In this document: in pieces, positions 2,022 through 13,816 of the stretch | Numbering within the stretch: position 1 is the stretch's first letter | Layout of the letters: the number at the start of each line of letters is the position of its first letter | Source: Lactobacillus hominis DSM 23910 = CRBIP 24.179 | Lineage (GTDB): Bacteria; Bacillota; Bacilli; Lactobacillales; Lactobacillaceae | Direction of reading: 5' to 3' | Length of the DNA: 64,000 nucleotides | Assembly (NCBI RefSeq): GCF_000296835.1 | Contig: NZ_CAKE01000010.1 | Location: 62,001 to 126,000, forward strand | Position numbers and translations under genes: made by a program | The notes under the pieces: generated by a model | Database searches by the model: none | What the model saw: only the letters and a program-made list of their open reading frames with translations | Told to the model about the DNA's origin: nothing

Positions 2022-2891
2022 TTACTTCTGATCGTATTTGCTCCATTGGTCTTGCAATTTTTCAATTAAAGGCATGACACGATTTTTATTTTGCTTTAAA
2101 TAAACAGCGTAGAACTTTTGATGGGCTACTTCATCTGATAAAGGACGAACAGTTCGATTATTAGGCAAATTGGTGCCCCATTGAGAATCTAAGCTAGTTA
2201 AGTTAGTGGTGAAGAAAGGAAGCACTGAATATTGTAGAATTTCGCTATATTCAGTTGATTCATTTTGAAAAATAATCTTACTATCTGGAATTTCATCATG
2301 ATAGATCTTGGTCCAAAAGCCAATTGGAGACGGACTTAAAATAGTTTTGCCCTTAAGCTTCTTGAAGGACAATTCCTTATTTTCGTTTAATTTACATTCA
2401 GATGGAAGATTAACTGACATTGATTCTGTGCCTAGATAAGTTGAGGTAATATCACGATCTTCAATTGGAAAGTTAATTAAAACACAAGTTAATTGATGTT
2501 CACTTAGTAACTTTTCAAAATTATTTTCAACTAAATTATTCTTAATCTGAATATTTTTATCATGTAAAGATCGTAGGACAATTCCTGGTCCTGGGGCATT
2601 GAAGCCGACGACTAGGGTAGTCTGATCTTTATCAAATTGCTTAACTTTTTTAGTGAAGTCTAAATTGTCGTTGATTAATTTTTTTGCTTCACGTGTCGTA
2701 TATTTTCCAGTTTCGTTTAAATAAAGTTTATTAGGTTTACGAATAAAAAGCTTCACGCCAAGTTCTTCTTCGAGCTTTTTCATAGAATGTGTCACAGCAG
2801 GCTGGGTTAAACCAAGAACTTCTGCGGTTTTAGCGACGGTGCCATATTTAGCAAATGTGACTAATTCTTCCAGTAAGTAATTTTCAATCAT
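2022..2891 (-). CDS. LysR-family transcriptional regulator
   Basis: An LTTR with an N-terminal winged helix (FAKYGTVAKTAEVLGLTQPAVTHSMKKLE) and a periplasmic-binding-like effector domain. The frame extends six codons further to a TTG at 2909, but the ATG at 2891 has an AGGT-type ribosome-binding site about seven bases upstream, so I start there (289 residues). It diverges from the flavodoxin-like reductase/alcohol dehydrogenase operon at 3019, which it most likely controls in the usual LTTR fashion. The effector is unknown. Confidence 0.88.
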   Translation of the reverse strand: MIENYLLEELVTFAKYGTVAKTAEVLGLTQPAVTHSMKKLEEELGVKLFIRKPNKLYLNETGKYTTREAKKLINDNLDFTKKVKQFDKDQTTLVVGFNAPGPGIVLRSLHDKNIQIKNNLVENNFEKLLSEHQLTCVLINFPIEDRDITSTYLGTESMSVNLPSECKLNENKELSFKKLKGKTILSPSPIGFWTKIYHDEIPDSKIIFQNESTEYSEILQYSVLPFFTTNLTSLDSQWGTNLPNNRTVRPLSDEVAHQKFYAVYLKQNKNRVMPLIEKLQDQWSKYDQK

Positions 2892-3018
2892 ATTTCTACC
2901 TCGTGACAATAAATCTAATTTATCCTAGCATGAAAAAATATGAATTTTCAAGAGTATTTCTTCTTCGTATAATCATTTATGAAAATTGAAGTTAGAAATA
3001 GTGAAAGAAGAATGACTT

Positions 3019-3555
3019 ATGGCTAGAGTAGTAATTTTAACAGGAAGTCCTCACTTTGAGGGCGCCTCTCAAAAATTAGCAGACAATTTTGAAAAAGGAA
3101 TAAAGGAAGCTGGAAACGAAGTTTATCGCTATGATGCGGGTTTGCAAAGTGAAAGTCAGCCACATTTTTTACAACTTGAACACGCACCAGGGATGGAAGT
3201 TGGAATTCCAGATAATGATTTAGTAGAAAAAGAAGTAATCCCTAAATTATTAGAAGCTGACATTGTTGTTCTAGTATCATCACTTTATTATTTCGGCTTG
3301 AATGCTCAACTTAAAACTGTTATTGATCGATTCTATGACTATAATCATGAATTAAAAGATAAAAAGATGGTCTTCATGATGGCTGGTTATGGGGCTCAGG
3401 AAGATATGGATGCAGTAAAGTTACATATACATAAATTGAGTAATTATATGCGTTGGCAAATGATTGATGAAATTTATGCGGATGATTCGTGGAATGATCA
3501 AAAATTAGCAAAATTTACTCAAAAAGCTTATAAATTAGGTAGGAGTATTAAGTAG
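3019..3555 (+). CDS. NAD(P)H-dependent flavodoxin-fold oxidoreductase
   Basis: A 178-residue protein that begins with a flavodoxin-like strand and phosphate loop (VVILTGSPHFEGASQKLADNF), the FMN-phosphate site of NADPH-dependent FMN reductases and quinone reductases. VLVSSLYYFGLNAQLKTVIDR is the isoalloxazine-contacting segment of that family. It heads an operon with a zinc alcohol dehydrogenase 13 bp downstream and a broken DUF2255 gene, all opposite a LysR gene. The likely role is flavin or quinone reduction in response to the LysR inducer. The substrate is not predictable. Confidence 0.85.
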   Translation: MARVVILTGSPHFEGASQKLADNFEKGIKEAGNEVYRYDAGLQSESQPHFLQLEHAPGMEVGIPDNDLVEKEVIPKLLEADIVVLVSSLYYFGLNAQLKTVIDRFYDYNHELKDKKMVFMMAGYGAQEDMDAVKLHIHKLSNYMRWQMIDEIYADDSWNDQKLAKFTQKAYKLGRSIK

Positions 3556-3568
3556 GAGGATTAGATTA

Positions 3569-4609
3569 ATGAAATACGCTGAATTTGTTAAAGCGGGCGA
3601 AATGAAGATTGTTGATAAACCAATGCCCAAAATTGAAGAAGATGACGATGTTATCATTAAAGTTCTTCGGACTTGCGTTTGTGGTTCAGATTTGTGGGCA
3701 TACCGTGGTTTAGAAGAACAAGGTCATGAAAATGATGGTCACGAAATTATTGGTGTGATTGAAGAAGTAGGCAAAGATATTACTACTGTAAAGAAAGGCG
3801 ATTTCGTAATTGCACCATTTACTCATGGATGTGGGCATTGTCGCGCTTGTTTGGCCGGATTTGATGGTGTATGCATGAGTCATGGTTTAGGCGAAAATTT
3901 CTCGGTCGGCTATCAAGCAGAGTATGTTCGCTTTCAGCATGCACAATGGTCATTAGTTAAGATTCCTGGAAAACCTGAGGATTACAGCGAAGGGATGCTT
4001 AAGTCATTCTTAGCTTTAGCAGATGTAATGGCAACCGGATATCATGCAGCTAGAGTTGCAAATGTAAGACCAGGTGACAGTGTTATCGTTTTAGGTGATG
4101 GTGCTGTGGGATTATCTGCAATTATTGCTGCTAAGTTACGCGGAGCTAAACAAATCGTTTCTACTAGTCGGCATCCAGACCGGGAAAAGATAGCGCGTGA
4201 ATTTGGTGCGACCGATAATGTGGCGCAGCGTGATGAAGAAGGAATTCAAAACCTAATTAATATTACGCGTGGCGGTGCTGATGCAGTCTTAGAATGCGTT
4301 GGTAGTAAATTGTCAAATAAAGAAGCTATCCAGGTAGGTCGTCCTGGCGCGATTGTTGGCCGTGTTGGTTTACCACATGGAGCAGAATTGAACCCAGGTT
4401 TAATTTTTTATAAAAACATGAGCGTTGCTGGCGGACCTGCATCTGTGACAACTTATGATAAAGAAATTTTACTTAAGGCTGTCTTAGACGGCAAGATTAA
4501 TCCAGGTAAGGTTTTTACTAAGACATATGATTTAGATCAAATTAATGAAGCATACCAAGATATGGTTGATCGCAAGGTGATCAAGTCATATATCAAGGTT
4601 AGAGATTAA
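3569..4609 (+). CDS. Zinc-dependent medium-chain alcohol dehydrogenase
   Basis: An MDR-family protein of 346 residues. Catalytic-zinc ligands are visible in CVCGSDLW (Cys38) and GHENDGHEI (His/Glu around 58-59). The structural zinc lobe is complete (Cys88, Cys91, Cys94 and Cys102, spaced CxxCxxCx7C). The nucleotide fold has VIVLGDGAVGL at about 175. Related enzymes oxidise threonine, sorbitol or other alcohols with NAD(P). The start follows GGAGGATTAG ten bases upstream, within the operon. A C-terminal paralogous scrap lies at 31806-31928. Confidence 0.88.
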   Translation: MKYAEFVKAGEMKIVDKPMPKIEEDDDVIIKVLRTCVCGSDLWAYRGLEEQGHENDGHEIIGVIEEVGKDITTVKKGDFVIAPFTHGCGHCRACLAGFDGVCMSHGLGENFSVGYQAEYVRFQHAQWSLVKIPGKPEDYSEGMLKSFLALADVMATGYHAARVANVRPGDSVIVLGDGAVGLSAIIAAKLRGAKQIVSTSRHPDREKIAREFGATDNVAQRDEEGIQNLINITRGGADAVLECVGSKLSNKEAIQVGRPGAIVGRVGLPHGAELNPGLIFYKNMSVAGGPASVTTYDKEILLKAVLDGKINPGKVFTKTYDLDQINEAYQDMVDRKVIKSYIKVRD

Positions 4610-6507: not shown

Positions 6508-7392
6508 TTATTTTTCATGAAAATGACGAAGAATTTTGATTCCTTTTCTTTGATAAACATTTGGAATAAAACTTTTACGCATAGCAATTTGCATGTAGGC
6601 ATATAATTTCTGCCCATTTACTAAACGAATAATATGAACATTATCAGTGCTGCGAATACTACTCTCCATTGCTAAAGCAATTCCAACATTTCGTTCAACT
6701 AAATCAATCATCATTCTCATTGTGTCAGCAGTGTAAATGATTTTAGGACTAAATTGCCCAAGTTTTGCTTCTTGATCTAGGCATTCTCTAGTTAAATAAC
6801 CCTTTTTTCTTGCAATAAAACTTCTGTTTTTTAGTTCAAAAGCAGAAACAGCCTTCTTTTTGTTCCAAGGATCATCGAATCCAGTAATAATGACTAGTTC
6901 GGTTTTTTCAAGATTACGTATAAAGTAATCAGGATCATTTATTGGGACCATCCAAGAATAAATAGCCACATCAACATCACCATTGGTTAAACTGGAGAAA
7001 GCATCTGCCGATCTCTCTAGTCGAGTTTCAAGCATTGAGGAAATTCCTGCTTGAAAAAATTTTTGAATAATATCTGGGATATAGATACTACCAGCTTCTC
7101 CTGAAAAGGCCAGTCTGATTTTATCATCACTTGCATGCTTTACGTCATAAGAAATGCTTTCAATTTCCTTTAGTAGAAAATTAGCTTTCTTATAAAGTAA
7201 CTCCCCAGCTACAGTTAACTTTAGATTACTTTTTCGATTATTTTGAGTTATCAAAGGGTCATTAAATTCATTTGATAACCGTTTTATTGCCATTGAAATC
7301 GTGGGTTGAGTAACATCAAATTTATTTGCTGTCTCGGTATAGCTACCTGTTTTTACAAGAGTGCAAAAATATAAAAGATCTTTTTCGTTCAT
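6508..7392 (-). CDS. LysR-family regulator, divergent from flavoprotein 1
   Basis: A 294-residue LTTR. The N-terminal helix-turn-helix reads TGSYTETANKFDVTQPTISMA, followed by the linker helix and an effector domain. It is divergent from the FAD/FMN reductase at 7596 with about 200 bp between them, the standard arrangement for an LTTR and its target. A second LysR of similar length (9375-10250) faces the next flavoprotein, so the two units look like duplicated modules. In L. plantarum the hydroxycinnamate reductase genes are likewise opposite a LysR gene. The effector is unknown but is probably the substrate acid. Confidence 0.88.
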   Translation of the reverse strand: MNEKDLLYFCTLVKTGSYTETANKFDVTQPTISMAIKRLSNEFNDPLITQNNRKSNLKLTVAGELLYKKANFLLKEIESISYDVKHASDDKIRLAFSGEAGSIYIPDIIQKFFQAGISSMLETRLERSADAFSSLTNGDVDVAIYSWMVPINDPDYFIRNLEKTELVIITGFDDPWNKKKAVSAFELKNRSFIARKKGYLTRECLDQEAKLGQFSPKIIYTADTMRMMIDLVERNVGIALAMESSIRSTDNVHIIRLVNGQKLYAYMQIAMRKSFIPNVYQRKGIKILRHFHEK

Positions 7393-7531
7393 TATTAATC
7401 CATTAATTATAAAGTTAATTTATAAGTATATCTTTTTTAATTATAACTCTTTTTGAAATAATGTTGATGGATGTTGATATAAAAAGAATTATCTAGGTAA
7501 ATACTAAAAACAAGAATGCAAAAATTAATTA

Positions 7532-7579
7532 GATTTCAATTTATGAAAGCGATATATTTCATTTATGGAATATGAAATA
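7532..7579. promoter_or_regulatory. Candidate LysR-binding dyads upstream of flavoprotein 1
   Basis: Two dyads lie in the intergenic region: TTTCA-n-TGAAA within 7533-7547, and TATTTCAT / ATGAAATA at 7555-7562 and 7572-7579. Their spacing and position just upstream of the flavoprotein start fit LTTR sites. They are assigned from sequence symmetry only. Confidence 0.4.
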
Positions 7580-7595
7580 GAAAAGAGTGACAATT

Positions 7596-9374
7596 ATGAT
7601 TTACAATTCATCAATAAAATGGGATGCAGTTTATGATGTGATTGTAGTTGGATTTGGCGGAGCAGGAGCAAGTGCTGCTAGATTTGCTGCTGACAATGGT
7701 GCAAATGTCTTACTTTTGGATTCTGCCCCAGAAGGTAGCGAAGGAGGAAATACACGTTATTCTGGTGGGGCTTTCGCTTGGGGAAATAATTTTGAAAAAT
7801 TGCGGAATTATTACAGACAGACATATTATCCTTTCAATTATGATTCTAAAGATTTAGATACATTTGTTGAGAATGTTCTTAAAATGAAAGAATATTCAAA
7901 AAAATATTTTGGTATTGATGCTAAAGCAACTGGGCGTCGACCAAATGGAGAATATCCTGAATATAAAGATGCGGATGCTATGCAGTCACAAAGCATGACT
8001 CAAGGAATGTACAATGGTGGATTTTGGAAGTTATTAAGAAAAAAAGTATTTGAGCGTCTAGATAAAATAAATATTTGGTTTGAATCCCCAGCAATTCATC
8101 TAGTTCAAGATGCAAATAATAAAACTGTTTTAGGTGTTCAAGTAAAACGTAAAAATCAAATTAGAAATGTTGCTGCAAGAAACGGAATTGTTTTAAGTTG
8201 TGGTGGCTTTGAAAACAATCCTGAAATGGTACAAAATTTTTTAGGTCAAGGCTCTCTAGCTCCAATTGGGACTTTGTATAACCAAGGTAAAGGAATTGAT
8301 CTTGCAGTTGAAGTTGGTGCTCGTCTATGGCATATGTCGAATTATGATTCTCATGGATTATCGTTAAGACAAGATCAACCACATGAAAAGTTTGCTTATA
8401 TGATTAACTGGAAGAGCTTGTTTAATGGCAGTATTTTTATCGCTAGTGATGATGGTACACGTTATTTCCGTGAAGACGAAGAAGATAGACATGGATATAA
8501 ATATAACCATGGTAATTGGATTATGATTCCTAATCAAAATCACCCTCATATAGTGATGGATCAACGTCAGTATAATCAGCTAAAGAATGATCAATCAGCA
8601 AAAGCAGCTCAAATTAAGGAGTTGATTTCCTATGCTATCAAAGCAGATACGATTTCTGAACTTGCTGAAAAAATTAATGCACCTAAATTGAGTGAAGCAG
8701 TCGCTGATTTTAACTTCTTAACTGATGATGTAAAACGAGATATGTTCTTGAATCGGAAAATTGAAACAATGAGATCATTTAGTGAAGGTCCATATTATGC
8801 CATTCCAGTTCGACATAACATTTTACATACTCATGGTGGAGCAAAAAGAAATGAAAAATGCGAAGTAATTGATCTCGAAGGTAATCCAATTCCGCATTTG
8901 TATGAAGCTGGAGAATTAGGGGATATCTTCGCAACTAAATATATTGGGGCTAATAGTATTGCTGATTTGTTAATTTCTGGAAAAATATCAGGAGAAAATG
9001 CAGCATTGCCAAAACCAAAAACTGTAGAACTTGATGCTGTTACAGGTGCTTCTAAAGTTCCTGAATTAAAATCAGATGCACGCACAGAGATCACTAACTT
9101 TACCGCTGAAGAAAATCAAGGAATTGGTATGAGTGAAAATGGAATTAGTGATACTGCATTAGTTGTTCGCGTTACTAAAGATGGTAACAAGATAAGCAAC
9201 GTTGAAGTTTTACAAGAAAAAGAATCACCTTCTATAGGTGGAAAAGCAATTCCTAAGCTAGTAAAAGAAGTTTTATGTAAACAATCTGCAGATGTTGATG
9301 CCATATCTGGAGCTACAACAACTAGTTCTGCATTTAAAGATGCAGTTGCGCAAGCAATTTCTAATATTAAGTAA
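7596..9374 (+). CDS. Soluble FAD-dependent reductase with C-terminal FMN-bind domain (flavoprotein 1)
   Basis: Domain 1 (about residues 12-465) is the fumarate/urocanate reductase FAD fold: VIVVGFGGAGASAARFA dinucleotide loop, EGGNTRYSGG, a DRHG segment aligning with the proton-donor Arg region, and HTHGG near the end. Domain 2 (about 490-592) is an FMN-bind domain ending in DAISGATTTS, the motif on which ApbE attaches FMN covalently to Thr. There is no signal peptide, so it is cytoplasmic. A second motif-like DAVTGAS (residues 480-486) lies in the linker. I start at the ATG at 7596, which has AAGAGTG upstream, rather than the GTG at 7587. It probably reduces an alkene acid; the substrate is unknown. 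Confidence 0.88.
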   Translation: MIYNSSIKWDAVYDVIVVGFGGAGASAARFAADNGANVLLLDSAPEGSEGGNTRYSGGAFAWGNNFEKLRNYYRQTYYPFNYDSKDLDTFVENVLKMKEYSKKYFGIDAKATGRRPNGEYPEYKDADAMQSQSMTQGMYNGGFWKLLRKKVFERLDKINIWFESPAIHLVQDANNKTVLGVQVKRKNQIRNVAARNGIVLSCGGFENNPEMVQNFLGQGSLAPIGTLYNQGKGIDLAVEVGARLWHMSNYDSHGLSLRQDQPHEKFAYMINWKSLFNGSIFIASDDGTRYFREDEEDRHGYKYNHGNWIMIPNQNHPHIVMDQRQYNQLKNDQSAKAAQIKELISYAIKADTISELAEKINAPKLSEAVADFNFLTDDVKRDMFLNRKIETMRSFSEGPYYAIPVRHNILHTHGGAKRNEKCEVIDLEGNPIPHLYEAGELGDIFATKYIGANSIADLLISGKISGENAALPKPKTVELDAVTGASKVPELKSDARTEITNFTAEENQGIGMSENGISDTALVVRVTKDGNKISNVEVLQEKESPSIGGKAIPKLVKEVLCKQSADVDAISGATTTSSAFKDAVAQAISNIK

Positions 9375-10250
9375 TTATTTATTCAATAAAATATCAAGAC
9401 ATCTTTGTTGGATCCTATTGGGAATAAAATCATCACGGATTCCAAGGCTTGAGTAGCAATAAACCCGCTGACTAGGAAGTAATGGAACGGCAGTTACATT
9501 CGGGAGATTATTGACGGCAACATTCATCAAATATCCTACTCCCATACCACTACTAATTAATTTGGCGGTAGCATCTATGCTATCGACAATTAATTTCTTT
9601 TTAGGTTTAAAACCTGTTTTAGACATTATTCTATCAAGAGCTATTCTTGATAAAAAACGCTGATGCCTCATAATTAAGGGAATATTTTGAATTTGAAAAA
9701 GATCAATTTCTGACTTTTTTGCAAGCTCACTATTACTAGGAACAATTAATTCATATTGATATTTAGCAAAATCGGTAATCTTGATACCAGGCATTTTTTC
9801 GTCACCAAGACGAGAAAATACAATTGCGTCATATCGTCCATCTCTAAGATGTTGTTCTAATGAATGAGAATTATCCTGGTGTGTTTCAATAAAAGCCAAT
9901 AAATGACCTTGATTTAATTGAGTAATGACCGAAGGAAGCCAAGATCTTCCTGCTAATTCAGAATAACCTACTCTGAAATTGTTTTGATTAGCACGGTTTG
10001 CTTCAATTAAAATTGATTTTTCAATTTGCAGAATTTTTTTACTTTGACGATATGTAACTATACCAGCAGGAGTGATTACTAATTGCGCGCGACTGTTAGA
10101 TTGTTTAACCAGTTTAGTGCCAATTTCTTTCTCTAATCTTTTAATCATAGCACTAATTGCAGGTTGAGTTACTTGAAAGTATTTAGCAGTTGAAATATAG
10201 CTTTTGGTTTCAACTAGTTTCTTAAAGTATTTAAGATCTTTTATTTCCAT
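9375..10250 (-). CDS. LysR-family regulator, divergent from flavoprotein 2
   Basis: A 291-residue LTTR whose N-terminal helix-turn-helix (SYISTAKYFQVTQPAISAM) is followed by the usual effector domain. Its stop abuts the flavoprotein 1 stop on the opposite strand. It faces flavoprotein 2 across about 310 bp that contain a 17-bp direct repeat and a cre-like site. It most likely activates flavoprotein 2 and the transporter. It and the LysR at 6508 appear homologous by eye, consistent with duplication of a LysR-reductase module. Confidence 0.88.
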   Translation of the reverse strand: MEIKDLKYFKKLVETKSYISTAKYFQVTQPAISAMIKRLEKEIGTKLVKQSNSRAQLVITPAGIVTYRQSKKILQIEKSILIEANRANQNNFRVGYSELAGRSWLPSVITQLNQGHLLAFIETHQDNSHSLEQHLRDGRYDAIVFSRLGDEKMPGIKITDFAKYQYELIVPSNSELAKKSEIDLFQIQNIPLIMRHQRFLSRIALDRIMSKTGFKPKKKLIVDSIDATAKLISSGMGVGYLMNVAVNNLPNVTAVPLLPSQRVYCYSSLGIRDDFIPNRIQQRCLDILLNK

Positions 10251-10335
10251 AATGTTTTCCTGTTTTTAATAAGTGTGTAAATATAATTCTATTTAATACT
10301 AACTTATTATTTATTGTAAAAACAAGAAAAAGCAT

Positions 10336-10352
10336 AAATACAATTTATTGAT
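10336..10352. repeat. 17-bp direct repeat, copy 1 (LysR side)
   Basis: AAATACAATTTATTGAT occurs here and again identically at 10523-10539. One copy is near the LysR promoter and the other just upstream of flavoprotein 2. The placement suggests regulator binding sites in the otherwise empty 313-bp divergent region. Confidence 0.6.
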
Positions 10353-10417
10353 AGATTACTAATTTATATTGATTAAATTGATCATTTGTTTTTTGAAGAA
10401 TTTAAAATCTACTATCA

Positions 10418-10487
10418 CAAGCCCAATCCCTTAATGCGTAAGTAATTGATAATTGCTTGTGAACAAGCGCTTACATTTTTGGGCTTG
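10418..10487. promoter_or_regulatory. Long-loop inverted repeat with cre-like site
   Basis: CAAGCCCAA at 10418-10426 pairs exactly with TTGGGCTTG at 10479-10487. Inside lies AACAAGCGCTTACA (10462-10475), which matches the CcpA cre consensus at its central CG and its right half. Together they suggest carbon-catabolite control plus a second regulator. The cre match is imperfect at its left end. Confidence 0.45.
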
Positions 10488-10522
10488 CATAATCAGAATT
10501 GAGATGATATTTATATTCCAGA

Positions 10523-10539
10523 AAATACAATTTATTGAT
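10523..10539. repeat. 17-bp direct repeat, copy 2 (flavoprotein side)
   Basis: Identical to 10336-10352. It lies about 25 bp before the ribosome-binding site of flavoprotein 2, where an LTTR activation site would be expected. Confidence 0.6.
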
Positions 10540-10563
10540 TTAGTCTAATGAGGAAGATTAAAA

Positions 10564-12375
10564 ATGAACGCAGAGAAGAATTTTAAATGGAATGGAAATT
10601 ATGATGTCATAGTATTAGGCTTTGGTGGAGCAGGCGGAACTGCCGCGCGTTTTGCAAGTGATAATGGAGCAAATGTGTTATTAGTAGATGCAGCCCCATA
10701 TGGACATGAGGGTGGTAATACGCGTTATTCTGCTCAGCATGTGGCGATGGCGCATGATAAAGAAAAAATTACAGAATATTACCGTGAACTTGCTGAACCA
10801 TATGATTTCTCAGACAAAACAATGAATACTTATTTAAATGGCTTTGTTGATATGCCAGATTATTTTGAAAAATATTTGGATACAGAACCATTTATTTGGT
10901 CCAAGGATTATCAACCGGGAGACCATTTAGCAAATAAGTCTCATCTTTGTGAATATCCTGAGTTTAATGGGTCAGACACATTTGATTTTGCATTAGTTCA
11001 TAATCGTGATTTTGATGCAGGATTATGGAAAGTGATTAGAAAAAATGTTTTAGACAGAAAAGATAATATTGACGTTTGGTTAAATTCTCGAGCTCTAAAA
11101 CTGATTCAAAATGAAGATACAAAACAAGTGATTGGGGCAGTTGTTGACCGCAATCATAAGAAATATTACATTCATGCTGATAGAGGAGTTGTTTTAGCAA
11201 CTGGTGGTTTTGAAAATAATGCGCAAATGCAACAAGATTATCTTCATGTAACTAAATTAACGCCATTAGGTACTCTCTATAATCGTGGCGATGGTATTAA
11301 TATGGCTCAAGAAGTCGGTGCAAAGATGTGGCATATGAGCAATTATGAATCATTAGGAATTGTGCCCAGCTATGTGATTGCTGAAGAGGATAATCAGCGT
11401 GGACGTCAAATTAGCGGCTGGAAGAATGTTAAATCGGGTTCTATTTTTGCAGTTGCTGATGATGGTACTCGCTTTATGAAAGAAGATGCTAAGTTTCGTC
11501 ACGGTCATATTTATGATCATGGAGATTATCTTTTACCACACGCTTTCGATAACGCATGGTTAGTTTTTGATCAAAAACAATATCAAAAATTTGTTGAAGA
11601 AAAGAAGCAAGGAAAACTTAAGTATGTTAATTTCTTTGAGAAAGTAATTTCAGCTGACAATGCCGAAGAACTTGCAGAAAAGATGCATATACCTGCAAAC
11701 AATTTACTGAATACTATTAGTGAATTTAATGAATTTGCCAAGAAGGGAAAAGATATTAAATTTGATCGTGCAGCAGACTCAATGATGCCATTAGATCATG
11801 GAAAATTATATGCAATTAAATTGTCACCAGCAGTTTTGAATACTCAAGGTGGCCCAGAACATGACGAAAAAGCTCGCATTCTTAATGTGGAATCTAAGCC
11901 AATTTCACATTTATATAGTGCTGGCGAACTCGGAGGAATGTGTGTTAATAGATATCAAGGTGGTGGTAATTTAGCTGAATGTTTAATTTTTGGAAAGATC
12001 GCTGGAGAAAATGTTTCTCAAGAAGATCCTACTGATCCAGTTGAAATTGATAATCCTATTCCAAAGATTAATGATTTAGCTGATGGAGAAAGGATGGACA
12101 ATATTGAAGTAGGACCAGATCAATATATCGCATCCACTGAAGCGGGAATTGGTGGCAAAATTGTTGTTCGAGTTACTTATAAAGATAGAACTATTAAAAA
12201 AGTTGAAGTTTTAGAGAATCATGAAACTGAAGGAATTGGTGCAGTAGCAGTTAAAGAACTACCACAAAAAATTGTACAAGCCAATTCCACAAATATTGAT
12301 GCAGTTTCAGGAGCATCAACTACAACTAGAGCCGTTGAAGAAGCGGTAAATAAAGCGATTAAGAAAACAAAATAA
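10564..12375 (+). CDS. Soluble FAD-dependent reductase with C-terminal FMN-bind domain (flavoprotein 2)
   Basis: A 603-residue paralog of flavoprotein 1 with the same order of parts: FAD loop VIVLGFGGAGGTAARFA, EGGNTRYSA, a KFRHGH segment corresponding to the catalytic Arg region of fumarate-reductase-like enzymes, NTQGG, then an FMN-bind domain (about 500-603) with DAVSGASTTT for covalent FMN. No secretion signal is present. By-eye alignment puts Gln where Shewanella fumarate reductase has its second substrate-binding Arg (the NRLGGN segment), so fumarate is not assured. It sits 25 bp upstream of a DASS-type carboxylate transporter, pointing to an imported organic acid as acceptor. The start has GAGGAAGATTAAAA upstream. 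Confidence 0.88.
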   Translation: MNAEKNFKWNGNYDVIVLGFGGAGGTAARFASDNGANVLLVDAAPYGHEGGNTRYSAQHVAMAHDKEKITEYYRELAEPYDFSDKTMNTYLNGFVDMPDYFEKYLDTEPFIWSKDYQPGDHLANKSHLCEYPEFNGSDTFDFALVHNRDFDAGLWKVIRKNVLDRKDNIDVWLNSRALKLIQNEDTKQVIGAVVDRNHKKYYIHADRGVVLATGGFENNAQMQQDYLHVTKLTPLGTLYNRGDGINMAQEVGAKMWHMSNYESLGIVPSYVIAEEDNQRGRQISGWKNVKSGSIFAVADDGTRFMKEDAKFRHGHIYDHGDYLLPHAFDNAWLVFDQKQYQKFVEEKKQGKLKYVNFFEKVISADNAEELAEKMHIPANNLLNTISEFNEFAKKGKDIKFDRAADSMMPLDHGKLYAIKLSPAVLNTQGGPEHDEKARILNVESKPISHLYSAGELGGMCVNRYQGGGNLAECLIFGKIAGENVSQEDPTDPVEIDNPIPKINDLADGERMDNIEVGPDQYIASTEAGIGGKIVVRVTYKDRTIKKVEVLENHETEGIGAVAVKELPQKIVQANSTNIDAVSGASTTTRAVEEAVNKAIKKTK

Positions 12376-12400
12376 AATTCGATTTATAGGGAGTAGAAAA

Positions 12401-13816
12401 ATGCTAGATAAATTTGAATGGAAAAAATGGATTCTACCATTAGCCTTGGGAATTATTCTTTGGCTATTGACTCCGTTAAAGCCAGCAGACATCAGTGTTG
12501 CAGCATGGCATTTATTTGCAATTTTTATTGCAACAATTATTGCGTGTGTTACTAAGCCTTTACCTATGATGGCTACAACGTTAATTGCAATTATTGTTGC
12601 TACTTTAACTGGAATTTTTAAGATGAAGGAAGTTTGTGCTGGCTTTGGTAATTCAACAGCATGGATGGTTGCAATGTGTATGTTCATGGCAGCTGGATTT
12701 ATTAAATCTGGTTTAGGTAGAAGAATAGCTTATATAGTTGTAAAAACTTTTGGTAAAAAGACCTTGGGCTTAGCCTACGCTTTGTCAATGGTTGAAACTA
12801 TTCTTGCGATCGGAATTCCAAGTAATAATGCACGTGTAAATGGTATTATGTATCCAATCATTGATAGCCTTTCCAGAGAAATGGGTTCAGATCCTAAGAA
12901 AGGCACTCAAAAAAAACTGGGCTCTTTCTTAGTATTCAATGAATATGAAATTAATATTGTAACATCAACAATGTTTCTGACAGGGCTTGCAGGAAATATG
13001 GTTGCCTTAGGCTTAGCCAAAACGCAAGGTGTGACTGTCTCTTGGATGCAGTGGTTTCTAGCGGCTATAGTTCCGGGTGCTATTTCATTGCTATTGGTTC
13101 CTTTTATTTTATATAAGATATATCCACCTCAAGTTAAGGAAACTCCTAATGCTCATGATTGGGCAGAAAAGAACCTTGAAAAAATGGGTAAAATGACAGC
13201 TGCTGAAAAGATTATGTCATTTGTATTTATTTTAGCTATTGTTCTTTGGTTAGTTGGTTCGCATATTGGAATTGATGCAACAGAAGTAAGTTTTATTGCA
13301 GTGGGACTTTTATTGCTAACAGGCGTAATTAACACTAAGGATTTATTAAAAGAAAGTTTTGCTTGGAATATCTTAACTTGGCTCTCTATCATTATGCTAA
13401 TGTCTCAAAAGTTAATGACCTTGGGATTCTTCCCATGGTTCTCAAAGACTTTAGGTTCAATGCTTCATGGAGTTAACTGGATCTGGGTATTAGTAATTTT
13501 ATGGTTAGTTTACTTCTACTTACACTATTTGTTTCCGAGCGTGTCTACGCAAATTTCAGCTTTATATGCTGGTTTCTTGTCAATTGCCTTAGGGGTAGGG
13601 ATGCCACCAATTATGGCTGCTATGATGTTGGCCTTTGATGGTTCACTATATTTGTCAACTTCAACTTATTCTGCTGGGCCTGCTGCTTTACTATCAACAA
13701 CCGGCTATGTATCTAATAAGGATTGGTGGATATTAAGTGCAGTTATTGGTGTAGTTCTAAATGTAATCTGGCTTGGTGGCGGATTGCTTTGGACTAAGAT
13801 TATTGGATATTGGTAG
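12401..13816 (+). CDS. DASS-family di/tricarboxylate transporter (CitT/TtdT-like)
   Basis: A 471-residue membrane protein with about 12 hydrophobic segments. Family features include the hairpin IPSNNARVNGIMYPII (the SNxxR/T motif) and a second half with PSVSTQISALYAGF and ample small residues in the re-entrant loops. DASS proteins move di- and tricarboxylates by sodium symport or by anion exchange such as fumarate/succinate or citrate/succinate. It is cotranscribed with flavoprotein 2, so the reductase substrate is probably what it imports, and the reduced product may be exported in return. Its order after the reductase and the terminator at 13839 close the operon. Confidence 0.87.
   Translation: MLDKFEWKKWILPLALGIILWLLTPLKPADISVAAWHLFAIFIATIIACVTKPLPMMATTLIAIIVATLTGIFKMKEVCAGFGNSTAWMVAMCMFMAAGFIKSGLGRRIAYIVVKTFGKKTLGLAYALSMVETILAIGIPSNNARVNGIMYPIIDSLSREMGSDPKKGTQKKLGSFLVFNEYEINIVTSTMFLTGLAGNMVALGLAKTQGVTVSWMQWFLAAIVPGAISLLLVPFILYKIYPPQVKETPNAHDWAEKNLEKMGKMTAAEKIMSFVFILAIVLWLVGSHIGIDATEVSFIAVGLLLLTGVINTKDLLKESFAWNILTWLSIIMLMSQKLMTLGFFPWFSKTLGSMLHGVNWIWVLVILWLVYFYLHYLFPSVSTQISALYAGFLSIALGVGMPPIMAAMMLAFDGSLYLSTSTYSAGPAALLSTTGYVSNKDWWILSAVIGVVLNVIWLGGGLLWTKIIGYW

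Follow-up and report, generated by a model that had tools for sequence, protein, structure and literature searches.

Homofermentative lactobacilli are usually pictured with few NADH outlets besides lactate, and fermentative lactobacilli are known to benefit from reducing unsaturated acids. Among the closest known enzymes are the urocanate and fumarate reductases of the FAD_binding_2 fold, UrdA (6t85), FccA and Ifc3; in FccA, Arg402 is the proton donor, and Arg544 and His504 bind the second carboxylate. In L. plantarum, HcrAB is under LysR control, depends on flavin and is driven by NADH via a COG0431 domain (passages of PMC10295242). L. johnsonii FRedA/FRedB is an NADH-specific FMN reductase heterodimer that produces H2O2; its authors left its physiological role open, and ApbE goes unmentioned in the main text (PMC4500961). 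On the transport side, DASS proteins form a di- and tricarboxylate family. Its exchangers usually trade succinate against other dicarboxylates; succinate and 2-oxoglutarate are transported by LaINDY of L. acidophilus (passages of PMC7553777). Here we analyse a locus at positions 6508-13816 of a 64,000-nucleotide stretch (the window) from the 1.93-Mb genome of Lactobacillus hominis DSM 23910 = CRBIP 24.179, in which two reductase genes, P1 and P2, stand beside a DASS gene. Its components are recognisable and we class the P1/P2-DASS unit with the covalent-FMN ene-reductases, while the combination is apparently undescribed: no account of such a module appeared among the matches listed for the open full-text literature, most subscription papers lying outside that scope. 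At a probability of about 60%, we read the locus as a regulated anaerobic electron-sink module, in which DASS exchanges precursor for product and covalent-FMN ene-reductases act on an acid that is neither plain fumarate nor urocanate. The original prediction had proposed import and reduction of an unsaturated acid as an electron sink, with product export; its observation is confirmed, and its interpretation is right in outline and partly supported.

The locus comprises five genes, identified from open reading frames and Pfam:

6508..7392, minus strand: LysR1, LysR-type regulator, divergent from P1 (Pfam HTH_1 and LysR_substrate; relatives adjoin P1 or DASS in many loci)
7587..9374, plus strand: P1, 595 aa, reductase with FAD_binding_2 and C-terminal FMN_bind (Pfam)
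9375..10250, minus strand: LysR2, LysR-type regulator, divergent from P2 (Pfam)
10564..12375, plus strand: P2, 603 aa, reductase with FAD_binding_2 and C-terminal FMN_bind (Pfam)
12401..13816, plus strand: DASS transporter, predicted exchanger, 471 aa (Pfam PF00939; TIGR00785)

These genes, their positions and domains, and the 25-bp gap between P2 and DASS are all as first predicted. LysR2 and P1 end at the same place. The likelier start of P1 is ATG 7596, as the proteins of several relatives begin near MIYNSS. Pfam scores lie far above cut-off for P1 (FAD_binding_2 105.8 bits, FMN_bind 55), P2 (132.6 and 61.4) and DASS (PF00939, 420.8), and DASS also scores 348.1 bits against TIGR00785 (cut-off 198.6). 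In both reductases an FAD-binding stretch, GFGGAG, lies some 20 residues in from the N terminus, and by eye no signal peptide is evident in either.

A scan of Lactobacillaceae species genomes for the DASS protein gave 38 loci, and relatives of P1 and P2 were sought in the stretches fetched around them. Such a relative is present at 34 of the 38: both enzymes at 13 loci, P1 only at five, P2 only at 15 (including a partial copy at a contig end, L085, and two copies in two frames, L091 and L097; L, G and C numbers are our handles for loci, genomes and contigs), and at one locus (L090) only relatives of 40-44% identity. The four loci without a reductase are L084 and L105, which are truncated by contig ends, L103 of Furfurilactobacillus siliginis, whose DASS is a 52% match, and L106 of L. 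delbrueckii DSM 20074. In the last of these LysR2 is in two pieces and only the final 83 residues of DASS remain, so we take it to be a remnant of a LysR2-P2-DASS unit. Gene order is variable. The arrangement LysR1-P1-LysR2-P2-DASS, with each reductase opposite its own LysR gene as the original prediction had it, holds in the window and recurs in only two of the 13 both-enzyme loci (L069 and L073); nine of the 13, including those of bee species and L. acetotolerans, read LysR1-P1-P2-DASS without LysR2, and two (L. xujianguonis and L076) read LysR2-P2-LysR1-DASS-P1. Further orders are LysR1-P1-DASS, LysR1-DASS-P1, P1-DASS-LysR1 and LysR2-P2-DASS, and in most Lactiplantibacillus loci P2 diverges from DASS with a LysR1-like gene (35-37%) behind it. 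Across 75 Lactobacillus genomes, with thresholds of at least 64% identity for DASS and at least 58% for P1 (the genus's common DASS proteins of 44-51% being excluded), DASS occurs in 36, P1 in 35, both in 32 and neither in 36 (Fisher p 1.9e-13, phylogeny ignored).

The same linkage is seen in a quick reductase tree of 73 rows labelled for proximity to DASS. Fifteen of the 18 rows of the P1 clade carry the label, as do 25 of the 28 rows of the clade that holds the linked P2 proteins. Among the unlabelled rows, L114, L118 (both P1) and L014 (P2) come from short stretches, and for the former two a longer locus of the same genome has DASS; L052 (P1) is from G038, whose P2-DASS sits on another contig; L020 and L021 (P2) have no DASS within 15-18 kb. 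Two labelled rows, L075_12380 and L090, fall outside both clades. The label changes nine times on the tree, compared with 23.8 times in shuffles, none of which, out of 500, gave so few changes; unlinked relatives fall between the P1 and P2 clades. Since linked P1 and P2 proteins sit in separate clades, one exchanger family is common to two reductase lineages. The two homologous reductases that had been noted are thus indeed related (38% identity), but as paralogues and not by recent duplication. Given that DASS is linked to P1 and P2 alike, the earlier assignment of the transporter to the second module only did not hold; the actual unit combines the exchanger with a member of either reductase lineage, or of both. 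It could be argued that P1 and P2 have unrelated substrates, that DASS serves only one of them and that their clustering is a regulon of convenience, given that their active sites differ (LHTHGG and LNTQGG) and that LysR2, at 30% identity to LysR1, is a regulator in its own right. We consider this unlikely, as DASS pairs with P1 alone or P2 alone at different loci and the same transporter family is common to the two separate clades.

The residues of the two enzymes on which the choice of substrate turns are as follows:

8487..8495, plus strand: P1 Arg301-His-Gly, likely counterpart of FccA catalytic Arg402 (alignment to FccA one residue off)
8826..8840, plus strand: P1 His414-Thr-His-Gly-Gly, FccA His504 column kept (alignment)
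8937..8948, plus strand: P1 Lys451-Tyr452, FccA Arg544 column is Tyr (alignment)
9297..9320, plus strand: P1 presumed flavinylation motif DAISGATT, predicted FMN on Thr577
11497..11505, plus strand: P2 Arg312-His-Gly, likely catalytic Arg
11839..11853, plus strand: P2 Asn426-Thr-Gln-Gly-Gly, FccA His504 column is Asn (alignment)
11950..11961, plus strand: P2 Arg463-Tyr464-Gln, FccA Arg544 column is Tyr (alignment)
12298..12321, plus strand: P2 presumed flavinylation motif DAVSGAST, predicted FMN on Ser585

In a MAFFT alignment of 92 rows (89 family members, out of 107 before removal of near-identical ones, and three PDB segments), Tyr occupies the FccA Arg544 column in P1, P2 and the other subfamily members, within KY-I in P1 and RY-Q in P2. 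The loss of the C-terminal substrate Arg, first noticed by eye, is therefore real; as for the replacement by Tyr or Gln then proposed, Tyr applies to both enzymes, and the Gln of P2 is the residue after the column. At the His504 column P1 has His and P2 has Asn; the Met506 column is His or Gln, and neither the Glu378 nor the Arg381 column is conserved. An Arg-His-Gly triplet is invariant in both smaller alignments, and its Arg is the probable equivalent of FccA Arg402. Neither the carboxylate-binding Arg of urocanate reductases nor their HHTMGG motif is found in P1 or P2. Unlike UrdA, FccA and Ifc3, both proteins carry FMN_bind at the C terminus and score under the flavocytochrome c cut-off (TIGR01813; P1 157.8 and P2 192.8 bits, cut-off 285.45), and no NCBIfam model exceeds its cut-off among the best 25 listed for either. 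The reading as a cytoplasmic FMN_bind reductase module with its own transporter is supported. With active-site residues changed and scores below the TIGR01813 cut-off, so is a position apart from both the fumarate reductases and the urocanate reductases, and the changed residues suggest that the substrate is probably not plain fumarate or urocanate.

The AlphaFold model of P2 is good (pLDDT 87.5, pTM 0.87) and that of P1 is fair (pLDDT 81.8, pTM 0.78). Ranked by Foldseek E-value, urocanate reductase comes first for both (6t86 for P1) and flavocytochrome c3 is also among the best for P2, while the TM-scores of ketosteroid dehydrogenase 7p18 (0.60-0.61) are about those of 6t86 (0.57-0.62). One might suppose that the enzymes work in the dehydrogenase direction, in a KstD- or TcuA-like manner, and oxidise an imported saturated acid, as the Tyr in place of Arg resembles ketosteroid dehydrogenases (KstD) and the tricarballylate dehydrogenase (TcuA) model gives P1 its top NCBIfam score. 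However, at 160.6 bits P1 is far under the TcuA cut-off of 369, the combination of covalent FMN with an FMN-reductase domain (see below) suggests that electrons run from NADH to the substrate, and it is the reduction of such acids that benefits fermentative lactobacilli. We regard oxidation as highly improbable.

The closest solved protein to the DASS transporter is LaINDY (6wtw, E 1.2e-136), with 46% identity over 470 columns. Two motifs of the transporter compare with LaINDY as follows:

12815..12835, plus strand: DASS IPSNNAR, LaINDY Asn156 and Arg159 kept, Ser157 to Asn (alignment)
13520..13552, plus strand: DASS LHYLFPSVSTQ, LaINDY His392 kept; Ala396 to Pro, Gly398 to Val, Thr399 to Ser, His401 to Gln (alignment)

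Arg159 and His392 of LaINDY are surrogates for Na+ that mark exchangers, or DASS-E (PMC7553777, in part). When 40 relatives were aligned with LaINDY (near-copies kept; LaINDY number equals chain index minus 3), both residues were kept in all 40, and the Glu146 column was Glu or Asp in all 40. A further exchanger trait, His401 near the Na2 position, is present in LaINDY and in the plant exchangers DiT1 and DiT2.1, which also keep the Ala396 column, but is Gln in 39 of the 40 relatives. Judged by its residues the DASS protein is an exchanger, and its retention of Arg159 and His392 supports the product export that had been proposed. Eighteen LaINDY residues are consistently nearest to succinate in simulation (154-159, 208-212, 396-399 and 442-444; passages of PMC7553777). 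Seven of these positions differ from LaINDY in most relatives (157, 210, 212, 396, 398, 399 and 442), with Ala210 to Leu, Pro212 to Gly, Ala396 to Pro, Gly398 to Val or Ile and Asn442 to Ala each in 39 of the 40, so that the DASS substrate possibly differs from that of LaINDY.

These comparisons bear directly on whether the locus simply performs fumarate reduction, with fumarate or malate exchanged for succinate and P1 and P2 being fumarate reductases whose carboxylate site is rearranged. The fold and the best PDB matches are those of fumarate and urocanate reductases, the His504 column is kept in P1, 11 of the 18 succinate-near positions are unchanged, and succinate is what DASS exchangers, LaINDY among them, typically handle (PMC7553777, in part). 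Against this, both enzymes have Tyr at the Arg544 column and P2 has Asn at the His504 column, both TIGR01813 scores fall short, and seven of the 18 positions depart from LaINDY. In addition, the genome has a separate flavocytochrome-c-type protein with a canonical site (L065, 352.4 bits against TIGR01813, above the cut-off). On balance plain fumarate reduction is unlikely. This third reductase of the genome (L065:7300-9183, contig C15), whose site is fumarate-reductase-like, has its FMN_bind domain at the N terminus and a divergent LysR-like gene.

HcrAB resembles the present enzymes in its LysR control and flavin dependence, but P1 and P2 lack a fused COG0431/FMN_red domain and are linked to a DASS exchanger. 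The HcrB-type protein L127 differs further, with domains in the order FMN_red-FMN_bind-FAD, where P1 and P2 have FAD-FMN_bind, and with a canonical HHTMGG/GNR site and a TIGR01813 score of 352 bits, above the cut-off. L127 is possibly not HcrB itself but a paralogue, because hcrR lies downstream of hcrB (passages of PMC10295242) and the LysR gene of L127 is upstream and divergent. The domain order and canonical site of this possible paralogue do not bear out the close HcrB link that the original prediction had suggested. They also weaken a scheme in which P1 and P2 are HcrB/Par1-like reductases of hydroxycinnamates or other aromatic acrylates, with phenolic acids, or dicarboxylic esters of them, as the cargo of DASS, as does the di- and tricarboxylate nature of the DASS family (PMC7553777, in part). 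Such a scheme would fit a LysR-controlled flavin-dependent reductase like hcr (PMC10295242, in part), the Tyr at the Arg544 column, the ketosteroid dehydrogenase TM-scores about equal to those of UrdA, and the P2-like proteins of F. milii and F. siliginis, both listed as par1-positive (passages of PMC12715276). We nevertheless find it about as unlikely as plain fumarate reduction.

P1 and P2 would each carry covalent FMN. Their FMN_bind domains contain D-A-[IV]-S-G-A-[ST]-T, in keeping with what we take to be the flavinylation motif, D-x-x-S-G-A-[ST], and ApbE is encoded in the same genome. As to the source of electrons, an N-terminal FMN_red domain is fused to P2 in both long orthologues tested (Pfam), and other P2 orthologues have matching length (784-802 residues). 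The FMN_red domain of the fused L. plantarum P2 shares 47-48% identity with two FMN_red proteins encoded side by side on contig C12 of the window's own genome, where they form a cluster with a tyrosine-phosphatase-family gene and apbE (order FMN_red-FMN_red-tyrosine phosphatase-apbE; L064:9293-12262). The C12 ApbE lacks an evident signal peptide by eye; we take it to be cytosolic because the second ApbE of the genome (L066) has a lipobox-like N terminus, also by eye. In the 75 Lactobacillus genomes the C12 ApbE finds a match in 72 and FMN_red in 73, with the best matches at most 5 kb apart in 70 of the 72 holding both, and an FMN_bind domain is found in 70. Furthermore, apbE adjoins P2-DASS in F. 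milii (L128). The clustering of FMN_red with apbE suggests that the H2O2-forming type of FMN reductase feeds flavinylated proteins. By its two-gene arrangement and family, the C12 pair would be an orthologue of FRedA/FRedB. Because of the FMN_red domain fused in P2 orthologues and the neighbouring apbE, we propose this FRed-type pair as the likely electron donor for P1 and P2, whereas FRedA/FRedB is known as a producer of H2O2 (PMC4500961, in part).

Regulation of the module presumably involves a shared operator, represented by two sites:

7409..7423, plus strand: putative LysR box ATAAA-N5-TTTAT, LysR1-P1 gap (motif match)
10334..10348, plus strand: putative LysR box ATAAA-N5-TTTAT, LysR2-P2 gap (motif match)

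The window contains four copies of ATAAA-N5-TTTAT where 0.84 would be expected, a number reached in one of 100 shuffles, and two of the copies lie in the divergent LysR1-P1 and LysR2-P2 promoter regions. Among 46 divergent regions scanned, some from duplicate genomes (at least L040/L102, L051/L098, L053/L099 and L054/L101), the box is present in 8 of 8 LysR2-P2, 20 of 23 LysR1-P1 or LysR1-DASS and 4 of 15 P2-DASS regions. As for possible control of P2 by CcpA, the strict cre consensus has no match in the window (1.15 expected by chance). Yet a cre-like stretch, AAGCGCTTACA, lies at 10465-10475, and a similar form is seen in five of eight aligned P2 upstream regions (the window, L069, L. gigeriorum, L. 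colini and L. equicursoris). Shuffling gives 37.1 promoter-like and 3.9 terminator-like sites; with 32 and 5 respectively, the window has no excess of either.

Taken as an electron sink, the module would work as follows. DASS would import an alpha,beta-unsaturated di- or tricarboxylate-like acid against its saturated product, and cytoplasmic P1, P2 or both would reduce the C=C bond of the acid. Electrons, we infer, would pass from NADH to an FRedA/B-type NADH:FMN reductase encoded elsewhere, then to covalent FMN and on to FAD, from which the substrate would receive hydride; the Arg of Arg-His-Gly is the likely proton donor. A cytosolic ApbE, encoded with the FMN reductase, would attach FMN to P1 and P2, and LysR1 and LysR2 would sense the acid or acids via the same type of ATAAA-N5-TTTAT box. 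More tentatively, it is possible that the module is a Lactobacillaceae-specific exchange sink for an unsaturated acid on which none of the characterised reductases with this fold acts (an aconitate-, mesaconate- or itaconate-like acid, for example), with service as shared NADH donor being the true task of the FRedA/B-type enzyme, which would supply electrons to interchangeable cytosolic covalent-FMN reductases and H2O2 as an aerobic side reaction. If the electron-sink reading is true, the module is an NADH outlet tying gut or plant acids to growth yield, and it offers a physiological function, open to direct testing, for a pair of FMN reductases of a kind so far known for making H2O2; the altered transporter and enzyme sites would point to a substrate class yet to be found. 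DASS is also present in honey-bee species, including L. helsingborgensis and L. kullabergensis; the passages of PMC8456714 on bee-gut species speak of citrate and malate use and have no match for fumarate, succinate or reductase.

Several observations speak against an electron sink of this design. The Arg-His-Gly triplet is one residue off the FccA Arg402 column in MAFFT, a profile alignment has a gap there, and an unlinked relative outside the smaller alignments (L044_7950) has REG for RHG. Eleven of the 18 succinate-near positions are as in LaINDY in most DASS relatives, and DiT1 and DiT2.1 also differ from LaINDY at Pro212 and Asn442; for both reasons a new DASS substrate is not proven. As to linkage, four of the 75 genomes have DASS without P1 and three have P1 without DASS. 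The former are G262, G266 and G281, in which a P1-like reductase of 40-42% identity adjoins DASS, and G309, which is 66% complete; the latter are G284, with a stop within the gene, G286, and G287, which is 69% complete. The box is absent from 11 of the 15 P2-DASS regions and occurs in the window at 2909 and 38768 as well. One Lactiplantibacillus P2, that of L098, is not as long as the fused forms. Among 60 good-quality genomes there are two, G265 and G292, that encode ApbE and FRed but in which no FMN_bind domain was found, the FRedB-like copy of G292 having an internal stop. Finally, being near-universal (73 and 72 of 75), FRed and ApbE do not track P1 and P2.

The P1/P2 subfamily is likely restricted to Lactobacillaceae. 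It has matches in 57 of 251 Lactobacillaceae genomes at E <= 1e-40, and a class-wide profile search of 348 genomes at E <= 1e-90, which included few close kin and scored at most three candidates per genome where shown, returned only the genome of the window.

Elsewhere in the window (2022-4609), a third LysR gene (2022-2909, minus strand) stands opposite a gene for a flavodoxin-fold NAD(P)H oxidoreductase (3019-3555), which is followed by a zinc alcohol dehydrogenase-family gene (3569-4609). The third copy of ATAAA-N5-TTTAT, at 2909-2923, precedes the oxidoreductase gene, and since it thus fronts a gene opposite another LysR, such a box may be a general feature of this type of LysR protein. 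The 3019-3555 FMN_red protein was considered as the electron donor and is unlikely to be so, because the FMN_red domain fused to P2 finds the C12 pair and not this protein (E <= 1e-3). No relative of it was found in the 38 DASS loci, whose 8-kb flanks would miss its position in the window.

The second ApbE belongs to a different cluster (L066:6891-11123, contig C35), in which a lipoprotein-like ApbE, a 308-residue lipoprotein-like protein with two FMN_bind matches and a 632-residue FAD protein (the last judged by eye) are encoded; it resembles a locus for flavin-based extracellular electron transfer. In Furfurilactobacillus milii FUA3430 (L091/L128) a stop codon lies inside the P2 orthologue, and the adjoining DASS and apbE frames are full-length. 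The L. plantarum plasmid pRI113_3 (L039), typed as mobilizable, carries a P2-like reductase (46%) with its LysR, and 407 plasmid records have any P2 match, 38 of them from Lactiplantibacillus. In G274:C16 and G270:C6, frames of 1211 residues have two FMN_bind matches, which would fit a fusion of two reductases, but another search gave 605 residues at the same places. A short FMN_bind remnant in a 46-residue frame at G000:C36:121123-121206 is perhaps a decayed reductase gene.

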